Source of the DNA: a virus
IMG/VR virus record: IMGVR_UViG_3300017744_000178
Location: 1 to 22,458 of that record
Reading direction: 5' to 3' (one strand)
Length of the DNA stretch: 22,458 nt
The notes beneath the pieces were generated by a model, which searched no databases, was not told the DNA's origin, and saw only the letters and a list, made by a program, of their open reading frames with translations. This document shows, piece by piece, positions 1 through 22,443 of this stretch (positions are counted from its first letter, which is position 1; each line of letters starts with the position of its first letter). The position numbers were made by a program, and so were the translations under genes.

Positions 1-525
1 ATGAGGCATATCATAATAAGTTCCGATAAAGATAGACCCCATTTTTATTGTTCCTGCATTAGTAGTATCATCAGCACTTTTTATCCTAAATACCCATCGC
101 TCAAATTCACCACCCTCTATACCGTGTTCTACTTCATATAGACTAAAACCATCATATTCAGGGACTTCATCCCTACCCCAATTAACTATTTCTATTCCTT
201 GTCCATAGCTATCAGCTGCATTCTCAATATTAATTTTTACACGAGGTTCTATATTTACACTATTAAAGTTATGACCAAGAAATCCATAGACTGTTTTGTT
301 GTGAGTCGAGTTTCTTATTATTTCCTCACTTAAAAGATTTGAAGTTTTATATGAAAAAAAGTCAGCTAAGTCCTCTGAGCCTCCATGAGTAAAATCATAG
401 CTTCCTGCATTTGTGGGATTTAGACCACAAGGAAAATATTGAGATTCATAACCTGTTAATCCTATTGCCCTTAAATAACTAAATATATCTACATAAAATC
501 TTGGTGTGCCTACGTTCTGTGCCAT
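1..525 (-). CDS. Putative distal tail / appendage protein (3' end beyond the window)
   Basis: The reading frame starts with ATG at 525-523 and stays open for 175 codons to the window edge, so the C-terminus is missing. The start is well supported. A strong Shine-Dalgarno sequence (GGAGGAGG) lies just upstream, and the ATG overlaps the TAA of the preceding gene by one base (TAATG). The protein begins MAQNVGTPRFYVDIFSY and later shows a 'FLGHNFNS' segment followed by many short beta-type stretches. It ends in this window with a 'GSIFIGTYYDMPH' stretch. This pattern (GTP-FYVD opening, LGHN, then an 'iG.yydmP' segment) looks to me like a recurrent beta-sandwich tail protein of marine phages, but I cannot name a family. 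Position after the tail hub and a 215-aa tail protein supports a tail-tip or periphery role. Virion protein is a fair call; the exact function is not known. Confidence 0.6.
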   Translation of the reverse strand, partial: MAQNVGTPRFYVDIFSYLRAIGLTGYESQYFPCGLNPTNAGSYDFTHGGSEDLADFFSYKTSNLLSEEIIRNSTHNKTVYGFLGHNFNSVNIEPRVKINIENAADSYGQGIEIVNWGRDEVPEYDGFSLYEVEHGIEGGEFERWVFRIKSADDTTNAGTIKMGSIFIGTYYDMPH

Positions 526-1172
526 TAATATCCTCCTCCACCACCTGAACTGCTACCACCACTTGAACTTGCAGAGGTGATTGGAGTTGTGGCTTGCCTA
601 ATTTGTGAAATTTGTTTTTTTGTTATATTGACTCTATCTTTATGAGGATATATATTTACGGAATCTTGAGTATGTACTCCACCTGTCATAACAACACCAT
701 CAGAATGGATATGTATCAACTCATTAGCAGGTACAGGAGTTCCATCGCTATATTGATATTGCCCCTTAGATTGTGTCCTAATATTATTATTAACTACAAT
801 GTTATGCTTATTGAATCTTTGCTGAGATCCTATAAGATATTTACCATTACGAGTTCCCCACAGTGAACCATCATCTTCCCACTTTTCTTTATCTAATTCC
901 CAGTAATCTACACCTTGTAGTACAACATCTTCTCTCTCTAAAACATTATTCTTTACCGACTTACAAGACAAGATCCTAAGATCGCCTACATAATTAAATA
1001 GCTCCTGAGGCATATTAGTTCCATCAAGCATTACACCTACAATCTTATTTTTATTTGCAGACAAAAAAAGACTATCAGGACTATTTGTAATTCTGACTGA
1101 GCCCTTATACCTTAACTCAAAACCCTGAGAGTCACCATCAAATAAAACTTCGCCATTTCCATAAGTTATCAT
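525..1172 (-). CDS. Putative tail protein with HIH...M.G..H motif and Gly/Ser-rich C-terminus
   Basis: A 215-aa protein of unknown function. It starts at ATG 1172 behind a GGAAG-type ribosome site and only two bases after the stop of the tail hub gene. The first 110 residues look beta-rich and globular. Around residues 140-170 there is a histidine motif, H154-I-H156, M162-T-G164 and H167. I recognise this kind of 'y.IH.dg..M.G..H' segment from small virion proteins of marine phages. The last 20 residues are almost only Ser and Gly and end GGGGGY. The final Gly codons also supply the Shine-Dalgarno sequence for the next gene. The gene order (hub, this protein, next tail protein) suggests a component of the tail tip. 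The HxH could bind a metal ion, but that is inference. No catalytic domain or signal peptide is visible. Confidence 0.65.
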   Translation of the reverse strand: MITYGNGEVLFDGDSQGFELRYKGSVRITNSPDSLFLSANKNKIVGVMLDGTNMPQELFNYVGDLRILSCKSVKNNVLEREDVVLQGVDYWELDKEKWEDDGSLWGTRNGKYLIGSQQRFNKHNIVVNNNIRTQSKGQYQYSDGTPVPANELIHIHSDGVVMTGGVHTQDSVNIYPHKDRVNITKKQISQIRQATTPITSASSSGGSSSGGGGGY

Positions 1173-1174
1173 AA

Positions 1175-4100
1175 TTATTCTTCCAGTATAGCGTTCATAA
1201 GTATAACAATATCTAAAATATTAATTAGAGAATCATCATTCATATCCATTACCATATGTGTATGTGCTTCTAAATTTTCATCGCCCATAAAATCAATTTG
1301 ACCTAAAATAAAATTAATCATTAGAACAATATCCAATATATTCAACCCACCATCTGCGTTAGCATCTCCACTTAAAAAAGGAGGAGCACCTTGAGTAAAT
1401 ACCTGTAATTCAATATCTACTGATTCATTTGTGTTTATTGGAAAATCTTGGTCGTTAAATTGTGTTAAAGAATCACCTATTCCATCTCCATTAGTATCAA
1501 GTTCTTCTTGTGGATAAAATATATAGAGATTTGGATTGCTCTGTGAGCCTAAATAGCTATGGGTAAATCTGAATATATTAGGAGCACCAAAAGCAGGTGC
1601 ATTTAAACTTGTAATTACCTCTCCATTCAATTTTAGGGTTAAAAGATAATATACGCTTGACCCATTACTATATGTAGCAGGTATTATTCCATCTAAATTA
1701 TTTTGCTCATTAGGGATTGTAATCCGTAAATATGAACTCCCTGCGGCCTGAACAATTCCAGACAAGTTATAAAACTCACCTTCTTCTTCTTCTTCTTGTG
1801 CTTCTATTACTACAGATTGTGATGCGTTAGTTATATTCCCAGAAGAATCTATTGATTCATAGAATACTTGGAAAGAACCTGCCTCTGAATAACTTCCTGC
1901 TAATTGAGCTTCCTCTGCCATTGTATTGCTATATGTAATATCTACAGTTAATTCTCCATCTGTATAATCAACAGCAGTAGCAGTAAATGGAACAAAAGCA
2001 TCCCCTACAGTATATGTTAGTGATGCACTTCCAAAAGTTATAACTGGAGCAGTTGTATCTTCAGGTCCTATTACCTCATCATCCCAATCACTATTATCAA
2101 CATCCCCTAATGCGTGTAATTGCATACACTCAACAGATAATGAATCTAAACTCTTTGTAGTAGAAGTTACCATAAATAAAGGGTATCTTGTTTGAAAATT
2201 AACTGACCTTAATGCAGTATAGTTTATACCATAAGCCTTTACACCTTGAAATAGCTTCTCAAACTTTACTAAATCCCCAATCTCTAAATCGATGTATTGT
2301 AGTGGGAGTTTAAGGTTAAATATTAAATGATCATTCTTATATTGCTCTGATAAGAAAGATGCCAAGTCATCAGCAGTTTCCTTGTGTCTAATATGATCTG
2401 ATCCAAATTCTAAATGTGCATCAGCAGAATCTTCAATGCCATAGTATGAGTCAGCCCCTAAGTCTTCAGAGAAAGCTGTTTTTAAGTATGAATCTTGTGC
2501 ATAGTCTTTATGGTAAGATACAGTTACCTTCTTGTAAATCTGCTCAGGTTTGGTTTTCTTAAATGAGTAAGATATAACCTCTGATTCTTTAATTGGAGTG
2601 GCATTTACATAATCACCATTTAAAGTATAGCTATCTTTAACTGTATTGAAACCAAAACTACCATCATTCTTAAATTTAGGAAAGCACTTAGTAGACTTAG
2701 CTATATCTTCAATAAGTTTCTTTGATGAGATCTTCTGGTTTACAGTAAAAGCAAACCTCCAGTCAGCGTGTTGCAACTTTGCCTGTTCGTATTCATCGTA
2801 ATTAATGTTCTCGTGTCCAATCTCACTTCTAACTAAATCATAGATAATATCAATAGGGTTTTCAATTAATTCATACTCAGTAGTAGGGAAAAATCCTCCT
2901 GTGTCTACAAAACTTGGCCATAGACTTGAATCAGGATGGTCAACAAATGTATTTATTCTGCCATTTACATTAGCGTAGAAATCTTTGTCCGTAGTTCCTT
3001 TTGATATTCCCCATCTCCAATAGTCTAAATTCTTTGCCCTTACCTTTATGGTTATTGAACGTGGATGATAGAAAGTTCCAAAAGCTACATTAGTAAACCC
3101 TAACTTAAAACCATCAAACCCTTTTGGAGTTAGATTGTTTGACGCCGCATTTGTATCTGTTCCCTTAATACATACAAAGTCATTGCCTGATGGACCTGCT
3201 TGTCCCCATAAATGCGTTCCAGCGTTGGTTGTGAATTGAAAGAGGAAATCTGGCTGTATAGATGAAGGGATAAGTTGAGACCCAGTGTCAATATATCCTT
3301 CGCCCATAAAAAAATCATCATTATTCGTAAAAGTATGAGTTGGGTCATAATTACTGTAATCTCCAACAGGGATTTCAAAATTATCCTCTCTGTCCATTCT
3401 TGTTCCATTAAAGAAGAAAGTAACTTTCTCTGCATCAAATGCAAAGCTTCTATCTACAACATATTTAAAATGTAAAAATGGCATAGCCATATTGAACGTA
3501 GCGCCTGTTCCCCCAACCTCATAGGTTCTTTGATTATCAAATAGCACAAAACTTTCATCATCCAATGTTAAATTATGGAAATCTGCACCTGATAAATCCA
3601 TTATTGAAGTAACTCCTGCGACAGAGTCAGTAACATCATCAACCCAATCACTTGGAGGCAATAGCACATCAAAACTATCAGAACTTGAAAGGAAAGATGT
3701 AAATAAAATGTTATTTATAAAAAGGTCATTTTCTTGAAATCTCAACAACTTACAGTTAATGTTACTAAATGGAGATTCATCCTCTACATATTGTTTTGTG
3801 CTTGTAGTAAACACTATCGTTGCATCTGTATTTTCACCCACTAAATATTGGTCTAAATCCCACCCAATAGAATTTGCGTGTCCAGAATTAGTAAGCATAT
3901 ATTTTGGCACATTAGCATACGAATTGCCATTTGAAACATATAATGGATAAATTATATTATCTATTAAATCAACTTCCTCAGAAATGTAATTTTTTATCTC
4001 ACGATAGTCTGGGATAATATAAGTACCTCCATCTACTCTTAGTACGCAAGGACTCTTATCTACTCCTCCATAAACTATTGGTATTGGCTTATTCTTATAT

Positions 4101-4723
4101 TTATCAGGAACATTATTATCGACCCCTAAATATTCGCTTGGCAAACTCTTATGTGTCTTTTGCTCTGTTAAATCTTCAAGCTCTACCCTAACTTTCTCGT
4201 CATCGTGAGATATGCGCCTAATAATTCCCTGATAGACCATTTTAGCCATCATAATAGCATCTTGATCATCTACATATCTGTCATAAAAAGATTGGACAGG
4301 ATCATAGTTAAGGACCCCAAATATAGTAGAGTATGCAGTAACAGATGGAGAAACGAATTGGATGCTAACTTTCCAGTTAAGTAGGCTTGTATCAGATAAA
4401 ATATCAGTAAACCTTTCTCCTTCATATTCAATATTAGATATATTTAAATTAACACTTGAGATCTTAAATTTTCGAGATTCAACATCTACAGATTCCTTAA
4501 TAGACGGTATGTTTAAAAGAAGTGGTTTAAAATAAACACTATCAAGATTTAGCGCAGTGTTTCCCATAAGCCTATGTATATGCCCCAAAGATACATTGTT
4601 AGTAGAGAGTGTGATTACTCTATCATGGTTTTCCATAGTATTAAACATATCTTCAGGTGGTTCAATAGTTACTATTGGATATAGCTGGGTATTCTGACCC
4701 TTTATATCATCTTCAAAAGACAT
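1175..4723 (-). CDS. Large tail hub / tip protein with Ig-like and dockerin-like C-terminal extension
   Basis: This is the largest protein in the window, at 1182 aa. It begins at ATG 4723, overlapping the tape-measure stop (TAATG), with AGGAG seven bases upstream. Residues about 1-880 fit a siphophage tail hub or tail-associated protein. A hub-like 'GIIRRISHDDEKVRVELEDL' segment precedes 'KPIPIVYGG', and an 'IENPIDIIYDLVRSEIG' segment follows. The position right after the tape measure fits as well. The rest looks like an add-on. Residues 889-976 resemble a DUF5011-type Ig-like module (opening DTTAPVITF, with TVGD and DSSGN). Next come an EEEEE linker, a beta-rich module at about 984-1075, a DTNGDGIGD calcium-binding-type loop (1076-1084), and two dockerin-type-I-like repeats (1119-1141 and 1160-1182). 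Each repeat carries Asp/Asn ligand positions followed by an NILDIV helix. The hub role is inferred from order and motifs. The dockerin call is from the repeated pattern. Confidence 0.8.
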   Translation of the reverse strand: MSFEDDIKGQNTQLYPIVTIEPPEDMFNTMENHDRVITLSTNNVSLGHIHRLMGNTALNLDSVYFKPLLLNIPSIKESVDVESRKFKISSVNLNISNIEYEGERFTDILSDTSLLNWKVSIQFVSPSVTAYSTIFGVLNYDPVQSFYDRYVDDQDAIMMAKMVYQGIIRRISHDDEKVRVELEDLTEQKTHKSLPSEYLGVDNNVPDKYKNKPIPIVYGGVDKSPCVLRVDGGTYIIPDYREIKNYISEEVDLIDNIIYPLYVSNGNSYANVPKYMLTNSGHANSIGWDLDQYLVGENTDATIVFTTSTKQYVEDESPFSNINCKLLRFQENDLFINNILFTSFLSSSDSFDVLLPPSDWVDDVTDSVAGVTSIMDLSGADFHNLTLDDESFVLFDNQRTYEVGGTGATFNMAMPFLHFKYVVDRSFAFDAEKVTFFFNGTRMDREDNFEIPVGDYSNYDPTHTFTNNDDFFMGEGYIDTGSQLIPSSIQPDFLFQFTTNAGTHLWGQAGPSGNDFVCIKGTDTNAASNNLTPKGFDGFKLGFTNVAFGTFYHPRSITIKVRAKNLDYWRWGISKGTTDKDFYANVNGRINTFVDHPDSSLWPSFVDTGGFFPTTEYELIENPIDIIYDLVRSEIGHENINYDEYEQAKLQHADWRFAFTVNQKISSKKLIEDIAKSTKCFPKFKNDGSFGFNTVKDSYTLNGDYVNATPIKESEVISYSFKKTKPEQIYKKVTVSYHKDYAQDSYLKTAFSEDLGADSYYGIEDSADAHLEFGSDHIRHKETADDLASFLSEQYKNDHLIFNLKLPLQYIDLEIGDLVKFEKLFQGVKAYGINYTALRSVNFQTRYPLFMVTSTTKSLDSLSVECMQLHALGDVDNSDWDDEVIGPEDTTAPVITFGSASLTYTVGDAFVPFTATAVDYTDGELTVDITYSNTMAEEAQLAGSYSEAGSFQVFYESIDSSGNITNASQSVVIEAQEEEEEGEFYNLSGIVQAAGSSYLRITIPNEQNNLDGIIPATYSNGSSVYYLLTLKLNGEVITSLNAPAFGAPNIFRFTHSYLGSQSNPNLYIFYPQEELDTNGDGIGDSLTQFNDQDFPINTNESVDIELQVFTQGAPPFLSGDANADGGLNILDIVLMINFILGQIDFMGDENLEAHTHMVMDMNDDSLINILDIVILMNAILEE

Positions 4724-6513
4724 TAAGAAACTCCTATGTCAGCACCACGTCTGATCGCTTCTTTAATCATTGGGATAGCTTCATCTTCTATAAAGTCTTG
4801 ACTCATTACATTCCCACTAAAAGATACATTAACACTGCTTTGTGGACCATTTATATTTGGGGATGATAATGGAGTTATTTGCACACGCTCTTGTCCTCCA
4901 GCGTTATCCCCAACCATTATCATTTGAGGGCCAGAAGTTACAAAATCACCACCCTTTGCAAACTTAGGAACAACCTGCTCGAATAGAAGTGCGGCCGAAG
5001 CTGCTCCTACTGCACCAGTTACCAGACCTGCAAAACCTTTAGAGGATATTTCTTCTTTCAGCATTCCTGCTATCATCTGCGCAAAGTAACCTTTAATAGT
5101 AGACCTGATAATATTTAAGGCATCATTGCCTGTTTGAATGTTTGCAAGCCCTTGCTCAAGCGTACTTTTTTTAGTAGCATCGACTTGATTTGTTAAATCT
5201 TTTTGAGCGCCTATTTGTAGATCTTTGCCTTTTTTTATCCTCTTATCACTTTCTACTATGTTGTCATTAACAACAAGAACCTTACTACCATAATTGCTCC
5301 ATATTTCAGCCATCTTATCAGCTACTTCTTGATTGCTATTTACTTGATCATCAAACAATTCACCCATGCTTGTTGTGGCCAGACTTAATCCTTCTTCGCT
5401 TATCTTAGGCGTAAGCTCAAACTCGACACCAGGTAATTTATTTACCTGTTCCTTCATTAGATTGACCGCATCTATAAAAAAGTTAGCTATCTTAATTCCC
5501 ATCAATTTGCCCATTACAATTATTGGCTCGAATAGAAACTCAGCAGTTCTTTTAATTATATTAAAGGCTTCTGTCATAACAAAACCCATTGCAACTAAAA
5601 TACCGCCTAAAACATTTTTCATCGCACTTGAATCAAACATAACTTTAAGCGAGTCAATTATAGCATCACTTAAAGCATTCATATTTAGTAATATGTTTTT
5701 ACCTGTTTGAGCAAAGTCTATATCAAGAGCCCTCATTAATGTATTTGATATTTGTCCACTTACTTCAGAAATAACATCAAGAGCACTACTAAATGCTGGT
5801 TCCAGCTTAGTACCTATTGCGGTAGCAGTATCTATAAAGGACACTTTCATTTGTTGCATTTTATCAGATACAGTTAATTGTTCATCACCAAGATCAGCAA
5901 CCAGTCGTTTAGCTTGTCGCATTGTTTCATTGTTAAATGCTATTTTTTTCTCTGCATCTGTTAGTTCACTTGTGGACTTCTTTAATTCTTTTGCATAAGT
6001 TTTATTGGCTGTTTCCAGATCAACCATAATACCAAGATTATCAAGCATTAGTTTAGATTGCCTACCCATACCAGTTACAAGAGAATCAACACCAAACTTA
6101 GCATCCTCACCGACCGCGGCTCCAAGTCTTTGTGCAATATCAAACATCTCAGCCATCTGTTCAGAGGAATCAGCTATTCCGAGTAGCATAGCATTGTTAC
6201 TCATAGTCATAATATCCTGCTTACTGACAGTTCCATCCAATGCAGTCTGATATTGTTTTAAAGCATTGCTACTAAATCCAGCATTCCGATTCAAGTTATT
6301 AAAAGCCAGTTCGACCTTCTTCATTTCTCCAGCCATGTGTACAGCTTTAAGACCTGCACCGCCTAATGCAGTTCCAACGATAGCTGTTCCTTTAGCTACC
6401 TTTGTTCCAACACCAATAACCGCTCCCATACTGTTCTTTAATGCTTTAAATCCAGCTGAAGCCTGTTTTAAACCTTTTGTAGTTATTTCTATTAAAAATT
6501 TACTTTTTGACAT
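4723..6513 (-). CDS. Tail tape measure protein
   Basis: A 596-aa protein that should act as the length ruler inside the tail tube during assembly and pass to the host envelope at infection. It opens with 'KFLIEITTKGLKQASAGFKALK', the usual start of tape measures. An Ala/Gly-rich hydrophobic stretch follows (about residues 31-58), then a long helical region with Gln, Lys and Glu. Two further hydrophobic stretches lie around residue 300 and around residues 470-515. The segment with 'MGRQSKLMLDNLGI' is a common tape-measure motif. The start is ATG 6513 with a strong AAGGAGG site. It overlaps the end of the frameshifted chaperone ORF by 14 bases. At the accepted ratio of about 1.5 angstroms per residue, it would specify a tail of roughly 90 nm, which is short for a siphovirus. 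Confidence 0.93.
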   Translation of the reverse strand: MSKSKFLIEITTKGLKQASAGFKALKNSMGAVIGVGTKVAKGTAIVGTALGGAGLKAVHMAGEMKKVELAFNNLNRNAGFSSNALKQYQTALDGTVSKQDIMTMSNNAMLLGIADSSEQMAEMFDIAQRLGAAVGEDAKFGVDSLVTGMGRQSKLMLDNLGIMVDLETANKTYAKELKKSTSELTDAEKKIAFNNETMRQAKRLVADLGDEQLTVSDKMQQMKVSFIDTATAIGTKLEPAFSSALDVISEVSGQISNTLMRALDIDFAQTGKNILLNMNALSDAIIDSLKVMFDSSAMKNVLGGILVAMGFVMTEAFNIIKRTAEFLFEPIIVMGKLMGIKIANFFIDAVNLMKEQVNKLPGVEFELTPKISEEGLSLATTSMGELFDDQVNSNQEVADKMAEIWSNYGSKVLVVNDNIVESDKRIKKGKDLQIGAQKDLTNQVDATKKSTLEQGLANIQTGNDALNIIRSTIKGYFAQMIAGMLKEEISSKGFAGLVTGAVGAASAALLFEQVVPKFAKGGDFVTSGPQMIMVGDNAGGQERVQITPLSSPNINGPQSSVNVSFSGNVMSQDFIEDEAIPMIKEAIRRGADIGVS

Positions 6514-6922
6514 TCTTTTCCTCCTTATTCACACAGGAATTATATTCTTGTTCGATGATCATAAAGTCATCAACGATGTAGCTTGGAGTTTCTTGCATAG
6601 ATGGATATGGAGAGCATGAAAAGGTCTTACAATAGTTATACTCTTTAATCGTGGTTTGATGTTTTGCAGATAAAAGGGTTTCATAGTCAGTAAAGAAAGG
6701 ACACTGGGAATATAAAGACTTCCCAAGCTCATAGCCTTCCTTTTGAGAGATAGAATATAGTTTTTCAATTTCTTCATACACATCTTCTATACTCTCATAT
6801 ACCCTTTTCTTGTTAGTTACAAGTGATACTGCTTTATAAGGATATTCGTCTTTAAAACGAGATGGACCCAATCCATTAAAACTTATCCATACATTAATCC
6901 TTAACAGAGCATCATCAATTAC
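6500..6922 (-). CDS. Tail assembly chaperone, gpT-like part made by -1 frameshift (gpGT-like fusion)
   Basis: This reading frame has no good start of its own. The first in-frame start-like codon is a TTG at 6871 without a convincing ribosome site, and no in-frame ATG appears until the last third. The frame is open upstream to 6928, so it overlaps the end of the 88-aa ORF in the -1 frame. Slippage on A AAA AAG (6922-6928) would join all 88 residues of that ORF to 140 residues starting VIDDALLRINVW, giving a 228-aa fusion. This is the layout of lambda G and GT: a short and a long chaperone, the long one bridging tape measure and tube protein, just upstream of the tape measure gene. The gpT-like part contains several cysteines (SQCPFF, YCKTFSC, NSC). 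The chaperone role follows from position and frameshift, not from sequence similarity. Confidence 0.82.
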   Translation of the reverse strand, partial: VIDDALLRINVWISFNGLGPSRFKDEYPYKAVSLVTNKKRVYESIEDVYEEIEKLYSISQKEGYELGKSLYSQCPFFTDYETLLSAKHQTTIKEYNYCKTFSCSPYPSMQETPSYIVDDFMIIEQEYNSCVNKEEKNVKK

Positions 6923-7185
6923 TTTTTTTTATTAGCTTCCTCAAATATAGCATTCGCAATAGCTACGATCTCATCAGTAGAATACTTATTTAAATCATCC
7001 TCATTTAGCTCTGTGCAATCCAAGACGACCTTACCCCAGAAACTAAAGCTTGGAATTGTACCAGAAGCACTTTCTTTAAGCATCATGTCATTCAGCTCAC
7101 ATCTTTTTTTCCAAGTTATAGGTAAAACCTCGATCTCAAAAGCCTTAAATTTCTGATTTATTGATTTATCTGGTGTAATCTTCAT
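6919..7185 (-). CDS. Tail assembly chaperone, gpG-like (frameshift upstream ORF)
   Basis: An 88-aa acidic protein starting at ATG 7185, which overlaps the stop of the tube protein gene by one base (TAATG). It ends in ANKKK, encoded by the slippery run AAT AAA AAA AAG TAA. It lies exactly between the major tail protein and the tape measure. In long-tailed phages that place is held by the tail assembly chaperone pair, which coats the tape measure until the tube polymerises. These chaperones are not part of the mature virion. Most ribosomes would make this short form, and a minority would shift to make the 228-aa fusion. No motif identifies the family, but the length, position and recoding signal together make the role very likely. 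Confidence 0.85.
   Translation of the reverse strand: MKITPDKSINQKFKAFEIEVLPITWKKRCELNDMMLKESASGTIPSFSFWGKVVLDCTELNEDDLNKYSTDEIVAIANAIFEEANKKK
6922..6942 (-). promoter_or_regulatory. Programmed -1 ribosomal frameshift site (A AAA AAG with upstream SD-like stimulator)
   Basis: On the minus strand the heptamer A AAA AAG occupies 6928-6922 in the correct phase relative to the 88-aa ORF (codons AAA, AAA, AAG). The zero-frame stop TAA follows at once (6921-6919). After a one-base backward slip the tRNAs re-pair on AAA AAA and translation continues with GTA into the downstream frame. A Shine-Dalgarno-like GAGGA lies at 6942-6938, nine bases before the heptamer, comparable to the stimulator of the E. 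coli dnaX frameshift site. The run contains eight A residues, so transcriptional slippage could add to the effect. I see no strong downstream hairpin by eye. Confidence 0.85.
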
Positions 7186-8171
7186 TATGCAGTATGTATT
7201 TCAATTAAAGCGTTTGTAACATTCGCAGAATTATAAGTGAAAACTAAAGGGATAGTATCTTTCCAGCCATCATCATCCATTGAGATTCCAGTTTCTCCAA
7301 CAAAGACTTTATCACCTTGAATCTTAAATGTTCCATCATCAAGAATCAAAGCCATTCCAGCCTCATTGTCAATAGCTGACACTGATTCACCATCTCTTTT
7401 CACCGTTATATTCCCAGTTACACTAATATCTCCCATAGCATAACCAGTTGGTTTGAAATTTGCGCTTGAATCAAAACCTATTCTATTTACATCCTTAGTA
7501 ATTGTAACATCAAAACCATAAACCAGAACATCTTCACCATCTAAGGTAGATGTGGTTAGGTCATGGATATTAAAATAAGCAGTTTGATCTGCTACTGTAG
7601 TTTCTGTACCGCCAGAATAAGATTTATCTGCAAGAGTTGGAATATATCCAGTAACAAAAGTTGCTGTACATAAATAGACACCAGCATTATCGTTTATATT
7701 CCCAGAGATAGAAAGAGAATTGCAGAGGCAACTTATAAAGCTTACATCAGTTCCAGTATGATGAGCATTTTCAATAGTAATTGTTACTGGCAAAGCATTA
7801 CTTTCCCCATCAGTTAATTTAACTGTTGTAGGCATTGAACCTAAAACCTTTAGCTCATTAACTCCATCTTCAAATAGATTTAAACAAACCCTATTTAGGG
7901 AATCGGCTGTAGCCATAAATGTCATCGAAACCTCGAACATTCTATCATGTTTATTCCATTTTACCATTTGATCACTTAAAGTAGCCCCAGTTTGACCAGT
8001 TCTTTTGGGTGCCTCCATTAAACTATGCTTGAATGGATTATCAAAACTATAATCAGTTACAGGCATATTAATTCTGGTAGCGTCATTAGCGGCGATTGTT
8101 CCAACTGTGGTTTCAGTTGCAATCGTTACAAAAGTATCTTGTTTTGTTTGAAAAGTAGTTGATAGTGTCAT
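7185..8171 (-). CDS. Major tail tube protein
   Basis: A 328-aa protein expected to form the stacked rings of the non-contractile tail tube. It starts at ATG 8171, overlapping the stop of the 63-aa gene (TAATG), and is followed by the chaperone pair and tape measure, the normal order in siphophages. The N-terminus (LSTTFQTKQDTFVTIATETT, then 'INMPVTDYSFDNPFKHS') and the middle 'FEVSMTFMATAD' segment fit tube proteins, which open with a beta strand and an exposed loop. The C-terminal half contains repeated beta-type stretches, such as 'YGFDVTITKDVNRIG' and 'GDISVTGNITVKRDG'. This may be a second tube-like or Ig-like domain, and the length is above the roughly 150-250 aa of simple tube proteins. 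Confidence is high from position and composition; no single signature motif proves it. Confidence 0.82.
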   Translation of the reverse strand: MTLSTTFQTKQDTFVTIATETTVGTIAANDATRINMPVTDYSFDNPFKHSLMEAPKRTGQTGATLSDQMVKWNKHDRMFEVSMTFMATADSLNRVCLNLFEDGVNELKVLGSMPTTVKLTDGESNALPVTITIENAHHTGTDVSFISCLCNSLSISGNINDNAGVYLCTATFVTGYIPTLADKSYSGGTETTVADQTAYFNIHDLTTSTLDGEDVLVYGFDVTITKDVNRIGFDSSANFKPTGYAMGDISVTGNITVKRDGESVSAIDNEAGMALILDDGTFKIQGDKVFVGETGISMDDDGWKDTIPLVFTYNSANVTNALIEIHTA

Positions 8172-20865: not shown

Positions 20866-21361
20866 CAGTCGTAGGTACCCATGCGTTATTAAACTCTTCT
20901 TCTTTATCCATTTGTAGAGGGATTCCTTTTTCGTGCATTAACCTGATCACTTCTTCATCTTCCATTTGCAATCTTTCCATGATCTCATGTGCACTTAAAC
21001 CATCTTCTTTCATCTTCTGCACTATATCAGACATCTTTAATATAGCATGAGTTCCTCTTGCTCTGTTATGTCTAATCGTACTCATCATCTGATGATTCTC
21101 ATCTTTTGGGTTCATAGTTACAACTGGTACTTTGCCCTTTGTAATCTCTATTACATCTGGATCACCGCTTATTGTCCACCTATGGAAACCATCTACAATA
21201 GTATTATCTGGATTCCTAACAATAGGCTGTGTCCAACCATCTTCTATTATACTAATTTTTAATAGCTCTAATTCTGCTGGAGCTACACTATTAGGATTGT
21301 AATTGTTAGGTTTTAATAGATCTCTATCCACCCACTCTATTTTATCTAATGGTTGTTTCAT
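20843..21361 (-). CDS. ParB/Srx-type protein (IbrB-like)
   Basis: A 172-aa protein starting at ATG 21361, which overlaps the stop of the PAPS-reductase-like gene (ATGA). It has the ParB/Srx N-terminal fold: 'NYNPNSVAPAELELLKISI', 'QPIVRNPDNTIVDGFHRW' (the DGfHRw motif at 55-62), and 'STIRHNRARGTH' (box-II-like, 94-105). A helix-turn-helix-like stretch follows ('LSAHEIMERLQMEDEEVIRL', about 120-141). Such proteins bind or cut DNA or use CTP/ATP. In phages and prophages a ParB-like protein next to a PAPS-reductase-like protein forms the IbrA/IbrB pair, described as a regulator pair in E. coli prophage regions. Here the pair lies directly upstream of the terminase genes and overlaps the small terminase, so it may regulate late genes or act at the packaging site. 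That last step is inference. Confidence 0.8.
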   Translation of the reverse strand: MKQPLDKIEWVDRDLLKPNNYNPNSVAPAELELLKISIIEDGWTQPIVRNPDNTIVDGFHRWTISGDPDVIEITKGKVPVVTMNPKDENHQMMSTIRHNRARGTHAILKMSDIVQKMKEDGLSAHEIMERLQMEDEEVIRLMHEKGIPLQMDKEEEFNNAWVPTTDGTRFES

Positions 21362-22443
21362 ACACTACCTTTCTTATAATCTAAATATGAAGAATTAAAT
21401 TCTTTTGCAACTTTTGGATCAAACATTCTTTTCGACTTGGTTCGACCTTTTAGATCTCCCTTCATAGCCATCTGACACAACAACTTCCAGCTAATACCAC
21501 TATTTGGACAGGGAGAATCCTCTGGAATCGTAGATTTGGATTTATTATTGTGAAGCCTTATACACTGATTAACTGACTTATACAAGATCTTCTGTTCTTT
21601 TTTACCATTTAAAGCTATACATAGAGGTAAATATTCCTGCCAAGTCATACCATAAGGTGGCTTCTTTAAGAAAACTCCATACATAGAACTATTTCCATAC
21701 CTCCAAGCAGTTGATACTCCTGGTACCCTCTTAATCATTTTATGCCATAACTCAGGCCAACACTCTGCATATAACCATAATCCCCTTAATGGTTCTTCAC
21801 CGAAAGGTGGACATACTCTGGCTTTCTCCATTTCTACACCGCACCTTTGAAATACATCATAAGTCTGGTTATAATCCCATTCCTGTTTTGCAGTTGCTAA
21901 CCAAATATCTTTAGCACTCCAATCATATACTGGAGAAACATTGTAATAGTTCTTGCTATTCATCGAACTTTGGCTTATGTAATTATATTCAGTCCTACCA
22001 GAAACAGCCCTATATCGGTTCATGCTTTCTAATGCTCTTAAACCTAATATCATTCCAACCTTACCCTTATCCTCTGGGTACATTTTACGAGCATGTTCTG
22101 GTACAGTCATCCCTGTTTTAAATTTAGGACATTCTGTAATAGCATTTTTAGGTAGATCTCTAACCCATAAATCTTTCTTCTCTGGGTCCCAGCAGTACCA
22201 CCAAGGCTCTTTTCTGCTACAAGCGTTTCTATGTTTAACTGGTAAGCAATACCATTTAAAATCTATGTCAGGATTAGATTCCACCCTTTCCAGATATTCT
22301 ACTGTTTCTGGATGTATAGCTTCTTCATCCCAATGAACTACTTCCAACGGTAATCGATCTAACTCTCTTGCAACCTCTAATGTTATATTGAGTACTGCTG
22401 TTGAATCTTTACCACCAGAAAATGAAACTGCAATATGATCCAT
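21358..22443 (-). CDS. PAPS reductase-family ATP pyrophosphatase (IbrA-like)
   Basis: A 361-aa protein of the adenine nucleotide alpha-hydrolase fold. The PP-loop SGGKDS is at residues 9-14 ('HIAVSFSGGKDSTAVLN'). Later come 'MILGLRALESMNRYRAVSG' (the GiRa.ES..R motif) and 'NVSPVYDWSAKDIWLATAK' (P+.dW...DiW). There are many cysteines, including 'WYC', 'NACSRKEPWWYC', 'TEC', 'QRCGVEMEKARVC' and 'PCPNSG'. The ECGLH-type end of assimilatory PAPS reductases is absent, so this is more likely an IbrA/DndC-relative than a sulfate-assimilation enzyme. ATG 22443 is the first start in the window, but no ribosome site precedes it. The frame remains open to the window edge, so a longer N-terminus cannot be excluded. 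It is coupled to the ParB-like gene by ATGA. Confidence 0.85.
   Translation of the reverse strand: MDHIAVSFSGGKDSTAVLNITLEVARELDRLPLEVVHWDEEAIHPETVEYLERVESNPDIDFKWYCLPVKHRNACSRKEPWWYCWDPEKKDLWVRDLPKNAITECPKFKTGMTVPEHARKMYPEDKGKVGMILGLRALESMNRYRAVSGRTEYNYISQSSMNSKNYYNVSPVYDWSAKDIWLATAKQEWDYNQTYDVFQRCGVEMEKARVCPPFGEEPLRGLWLYAECWPELWHKMIKRVPGVSTAWRYGNSSMYGVFLKKPPYGMTWQEYLPLCIALNGKKEQKILYKSVNQCIRLHNNKSKSTIPEDSPCPNSGISWKLLCQMAMKGDLKGRTKSKRMFDPKVAKEFNSSYLDYKKGSV

Follow-up and report, generated by a model that had tools for sequence, protein, structure and literature searches.

A type I dockerin at the tip of the tail hub in a phage family, and its possible docking to a surface cohesin of Neomarinimicrobiota

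The type I dockerins of cellulosomes (PF00404; PDB 5nrk, 5nrm and 1daq) are built of two calcium-loop/helix repeats and share this build and their C-terminal place with the phage protein described here. They differ from it in three respects: the phage dockerin sits on a tail hub and not on a secreted enzyme, there is no scaffoldin in the phage, and the recognition positions hold V/I-L in both repeats, unlike in cellulosomal type I dockerins. On the phage side, the closest described proteins are the hubs T5 pb3 and lambda gpJ, which have the same core fold and the same place in the gene order. C-terminal, host-facing extensions are already known in this class, but here the extension ends in a dockerin instead.

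A cellulosome-like dockerin/scaffoldin system with a T9SS anchor was inferred for the Cloacimonadota (PMC8542988). It combines C-terminal dockerins with a cohesin protein carrying a C-terminal surface-attachment domain, as do the Neomarinimicrobiota discussed below. However, the Cloacimonadota scaffoldin is a multi-cohesin protein of 3755 aa, whereas the Neomarinimicrobiota have mainly a single-cohesin protein of ~250 aa, and in their case, unlike in the Cloacimonadota system, a phage is possibly exploiting the docking. Two phage papers share with our case only the word dockerin. For gene 40 of VvAW1 it comes from a Blastp remark made in connection with lysogeny (PMC3558961), and for Gp02 of vB_EcoS_HSE2 the match is a carbohydrate-binding module of a cellulosome protein, not a dockerin (PMC5967307); neither is a conserved hub tip. 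In the open-access literature we found no paper joining dockerins with this phylum (under the names searched), with a phage receptor or with a tail fiber. As far as we found there, C-terminal adhesion modules of hubs are known, and a dockerin in that role is new.

The window, that is the whole stretch of DNA analysed, is a virus record of 22,458 bases, whose products match terminase, portal, major head, tail tube and tape measure families. The hub gene directly follows the tape measure gene and is followed by two further genes (Table 1). An AlphaFold2 model of the hub core, built from 24 relatives, had a pTM of 0.67. In fold comparisons it matched the solved hubs of T5 (pb3) and its relative DT57C (8hqz, 7zqp and 7zhj; E 6.9e-14 to 2.6e-13) and lambda gpJ (8xcg, E 6.5e-9). 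Judged by this modelled fold, the 1182-aa protein is a tail-tip hub of the T5/lambda type, which bears out the first-pass annotation, where it had been called a normal siphophage hub.

Table 1 Location of the hub, its parts and the adjoining genes in the window.
Feature	Position	Strand	Basis
Second downstream gene, 175 aa seen, cut by record end	1..525	-	Start resembles L052/L023 genes
Next gene, 215 aa, Gly/Ser-rich C-terminus	525..1172	-	ORF 3' of hub
Tail-tip hub ORF (P0001), 1182 aa	1175..4723	-	Open frame and gene order
Dockerin repeat 2, DMNDDSLINILDIVILMNAILEE, residues 1160-1182, ends at stop codon	1178..1246	-	D-N-D-N-D intact
Dockerin type I domain, residues 1119-1180	1184..1369	-	Pfam PF00404, PDB dockerins, predicted three-helix fold
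Dockerin repeat 1, GDANADGGLNILDIVLMINFILG, residues 1119-1141	1301..1369	-	Calcium positions D-N-D-N-D intact
Second beta-rich spacer module, residues about 981-1115	1379..1783	-	Low-confidence model strands; similar only L003, partly L007
DTNGDGIGD calcium-loop-like motif, residues 1076-1084	1472..1498	-	Sequence
Putative Ig-like module, residues about 889-980, first spacer part	1784..2059	-	Weak PF16403; similar stretch in L003, L241, L037
Hub core, residues 1-874, kept across whole hub family	2102..4723	-	Alignment of 24 hubs and AlphaFold2 model
Tape measure protein, adjoins hub upstream	4723..6513	-	PHROG 3779 tape measure, E 2.5e-5

The 215-aa product of the gene after the hub gave no Pfam or PHROG match. 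The product of the cut gene behind it starts with NxGTPRFxV and by eye resembles two genes of other virus records, L052 (9215-11032) and L023 (4305-5627). Both relatives have an internal dockerin, so that in some of these phages (L052, L023) two proteins of the tail region carry a dockerin. At the right end of the window (21358-22443), a PAPS reductase-like gene adjoins a ParB-like gene.

The C-terminal end of the hub is a genuine type I dockerin. Pfam Dockerin_1 (PF00404) matched residues 1119-1180 with 26 bits (E 1.1e-5), against a curated cut-off of 22.9 bits, and covered profile positions 2-57 of 57. The same match reached 30.5 bits (E 9.7e-9) in a six-frame search of the record. Among PDB sequences, solved dockerins matched best (5nrk, E 1.2e-5). 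The calcium-binding D/N residues at loop positions 1, 3, 5, 9 and 12 are present in both repeats and are kept across the phage family. AlphaFold2 placed helices at residues 1129-1139, 1149-1159 and 1169-1180, with block pLDDT values of mostly 85-94 and a value of 62 for the block at about residues 1145-1154. Foldseek on the whole tail model, in which a low-confidence beta region dominates, returned only noise. The two C-terminal repeats had been read at first pass as dockerin type I repeats, and this reading held: the profile search found the dockerin and did not place the repeats in an unrelated family, and the predicted structure has three dockerin-like helices, not a lack of any helix-loop-helix pair. 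An EF-hand or thrombospondin type 3 identity was rejected, as only Dockerin_1 matched the repeats at E <= 1 in Pfam.

A scan of viral contigs that used only the hub core, a part free of dockerin, yielded 78 hub relatives. The family consists of uncultured phages that are probably marine. PF00404 was above its cut-off in 40 of the 50 hub-relative records examined. Among the 58 distinct hubs of the core-only scan with a judgeable C-terminal region, 45 had the dockerin in the hub ORF and five more in the next, overlapping ORF. An ORF that differs from the window's next gene and is tipped with a dockerin lies directly 3' of the hub in L055, L056, L060, L065 and L069, and L062, with a 219-aa dockerin ORF at the other end of its record, probably belongs to the next-ORF group as well. 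The first-pass annotation had called a dockerin on a phage tail tip unusual; within this hub family it is instead the rule (45 of 58, plus 5-6).

Seven or eight hubs had no dockerin (L046, L048, L058, L068, L077, L082 and L090, with L021 being cut just past the hub), corresponding to about 12-15% of the complete hubs. The dockerin is not strictly required in the family. In a tree of the hub core, every deep branch had the dockerin, absences were scattered, and the split form occurred in two places. In one clade (L066, L070, L078-L081, L085 and L091) the hub consists of two adjacent ORFs, with the dockerin at or near the end of the second. The dockerin-less hub of L077 (8701-10644) ends in a GWNLI-type module matching a secreted-type bacterial protein (29% over 162 aa). 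Misassembly or a chimera was ruled out by the same architecture in many independent contigs. When used as a single query against viral sequences, the window's own dockerin found nothing, and tblastn searches of the INPHARED phages with the hub and with a dockerin gave no match.

The closest cellular dockerins pointed to Candidatus Neomarinimicrobiota (SAR406): by their titles, at least 55 of the best 80 matches among 84,980 species genomes came from this phylum. The 25 not labelled as such share the NxLDIV motif. Compared at each position, the dockerins of the phages and of Neomarinimicrobiota hardly differ, and they share both the calcium residues and the V/I-L pair, which lies at the positions by which cellulosomal dockerins select their cohesin. 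Of 134 cellular dockerins in the fetched loci, 103 were C-terminal, as in the phage. A signal-peptide heuristic gave no separation between dockerin ORFs (47/74) and background (153/268). Neither a hub homologue nor a prophage was found in the 84,980 species genomes, hence these gave no direct phage-host link.

We took 20 candidate genomes from the list of best dockerins, so that they were selected for dockerin richness and not for the presence of cohesins. Nineteen of them encoded 33-112 dockerins, and one, G061, encoded a single dockerin. Cohesin matches were found in 19 of the 20, and the T9SS translocon SprA likewise in 19. A recurrent protein of ~250 aa begins with a signal-like N-terminus, contains one cohesin domain and ends in a T9SS type A sorting domain; by a profile of its cohesin part, it was present in 18 of the 20 genomes and not in G061. 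From three of these candidate socket proteins, all had the T9SS sorting domain TIGR04183 above cut-off, and all matched PF00963 (E 3e-6 to 4.5e-4), one above its cut-off and the other two slightly below (20.9 and 21.2 vs 24.1).

Across the phylum, dockerin and cohesin tended to be found together. From 80 genomes 39 had both, 23 neither and 18 only one of them (10 and 8; Fisher p 2.4e-6); MAGs are incomplete. The three genomes with >30 dockerins all gave a strong match to the socket protein.

From this we infer that Neomarinimicrobiota are the hosts and that the phage dockerin binds the host cohesin. On balance, we lean toward an attachment mechanism in which the phage borrows the dockerin-cohesin docking of the host itself. 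Weighing against it are the lack of a hub homologue in the 84,980 species genomes, the 25 best dockerin matches not labelled Neomarinimicrobiota, the hubs with no dockerin and the two socket proteins slightly below the cohesin cut-off. The hub would be the cone that closes a T5/lambda-like tail tip, with its C-terminus toward the host. Its last 64 residues are a dockerin of the kind which Neomarinimicrobiota place C-terminally on their own secreted proteins. The host would secrete the small protein, in which a signal peptide precedes a single cohesin domain and a type IX sorting domain. Once secreted, this protein should be held at the cell surface, where it would be the socket of the dockerin-tagged secreted proteins. 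The phage, whose tail tip would display copies of this plug, could dock in the socket and use it as receptor or first receptor. Calcium in seawater may fold the phage dockerin after its exit from the low-calcium cytoplasm.

Three roles had been suggested at first pass: docking of another phage protein, docking to a host surface cohesin, or a calcium-dependent switch. The host cohesin is the best supported of the three, because the candidate hosts have a cohesin with a surface-sorting signal and tens of dockerins, and no cohesin was found in 50 phage records. A calcium switch could act together with the docking to a host cohesin.

Dockerins were also found in other phage records. In a separate T4-like lineage, with contigs of about 110 kb, a trypsin with a lipoprotein-like start is fused to a similar dockerin. 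For example, the 113-kb virus record L214 encodes a trypsin-like protease-dockerin (6041-7408), with T4-like genes for DNA polymerase, clamp loader, helicase and ribonucleotide reductase beside it, and L197, L201, L221, L222, L223 and L228 have similar proteins. The trypsin-dockerin points the same way as docking to the host. A wider reading, in which viruses of SAR406, an uncultured phylum abundant in the sea, enter by mimicking the exoprotein plug and unrelated T4-like phages send dockerin-tagged trypsins to the same socket, we hold only tentatively. Two further records had dockerins in other contexts. In L217 (108 kb, 58-798), a fragment that forms the end of a protease-like protein has a stretch that looks cohesin-like by eye, with no Pfam cohesin match, and behind it a dockerin. 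In L263 (51 kb, 5888-7159), an arylsulfotransferase-like protein has a C-terminal dockerin, and could be host DNA.

An unlikely alternative is a dockerin partner within the virion itself, e.g., a neighbouring tail product, by which a fibre or cap would be kept at the tail tip. The two further tail genes 3' of the hub, the small separate tail protein that carries the dockerin in five relatives and the second dockerin in another tail gene of L052 and L023 would fit with this. However, no cohesin (PF00963) was found in the 50 phage records at E <= 1, nor in the window tail proteins scanned with Pfam, a search which a divergent cohesin could escape.

It is similarly improbable that the dockerin works without a cohesin partner, either as an end cap that folds with calcium or stabilises the trimer, or as a self-associating domain. 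Other organisms have lone dockerins for which no cohesin is known, and the place at the extreme C-terminus and the good conservation of both calcium loops agree with such a role. A cap would not account, however, for the V/I-L pair, which is kept besides the calcium residues and matches the bacterial dockerins, nor can hub capping apply to the dockerins on separate small ORFs and on the phage trypsin.

The region between core and dockerin is variable. Its length ranged from 8 to 495 aa in 85 distinct hubs, a set including some hubs from a second scan that selected for dockerins, and most spacers could not be aligned (105 of 1953 pairs detectably similar). The dockerin lay <=10 aa from the C-terminus in 77 of the 85. 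That the tip stays the same while the linker varies is what one would expect if the tip is functional, and suggests that it is the working part. In the window, residues 889-1182 (1178-2059, minus strand) had been described at first pass as an Ig-like module, a calcium loop and the dockerin repeats. The Ig-like module is plausible but weak: the Bact_surface_Ig-like profile PF16403 matched residues 898-971 with 14.6 bits, below its cut-off of 27 (E 0.034). The DTNGDGIGD loop is present, and L007 has kept it (DHDGDGIAD), but it is absent from the closest relative, L003, and is thus not a constant part of the hub. Both belong to the variable spacer, and not to the conserved parts.

Spacers of such diversity are typical of receptor-binding regions, and some resemble host secreted modules. 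The spacer modules (Ig-like, Cys-rich or beta-rich) might themselves bind the receptor, with the dockerin only helping the phage to adhere in a general way to material on surfaces, e.g., proteins shed by the host. We consider this quite unlikely, as 18 of the 85 hubs have a spacer of <=40 aa and still keep the dockerin. A cellulosome component with its own cohesin scaffold was rejected, given the lack of PF00963 matches in the 50 phage records and the cohesins in the candidate hosts.

Without cultures, it is difficult to identify the receptors of phages that infect uncultured marine bacteria such as SAR406. For docking to the host cohesin, the sequence gives a concrete receptor candidate, the small cohesin protein, and a 64-residue ligand, both easy to express. 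The dockerin/cohesin set also suggests how SAR406 cells may keep tens of secreted proteins on their surface. If the proposal is true, these phages attach by hijacking a calcium-dependent docking pair known until now from cellulosome assembly, and the interactions of phages with their receptors would gain a new class, that of cohesin with dockerin.
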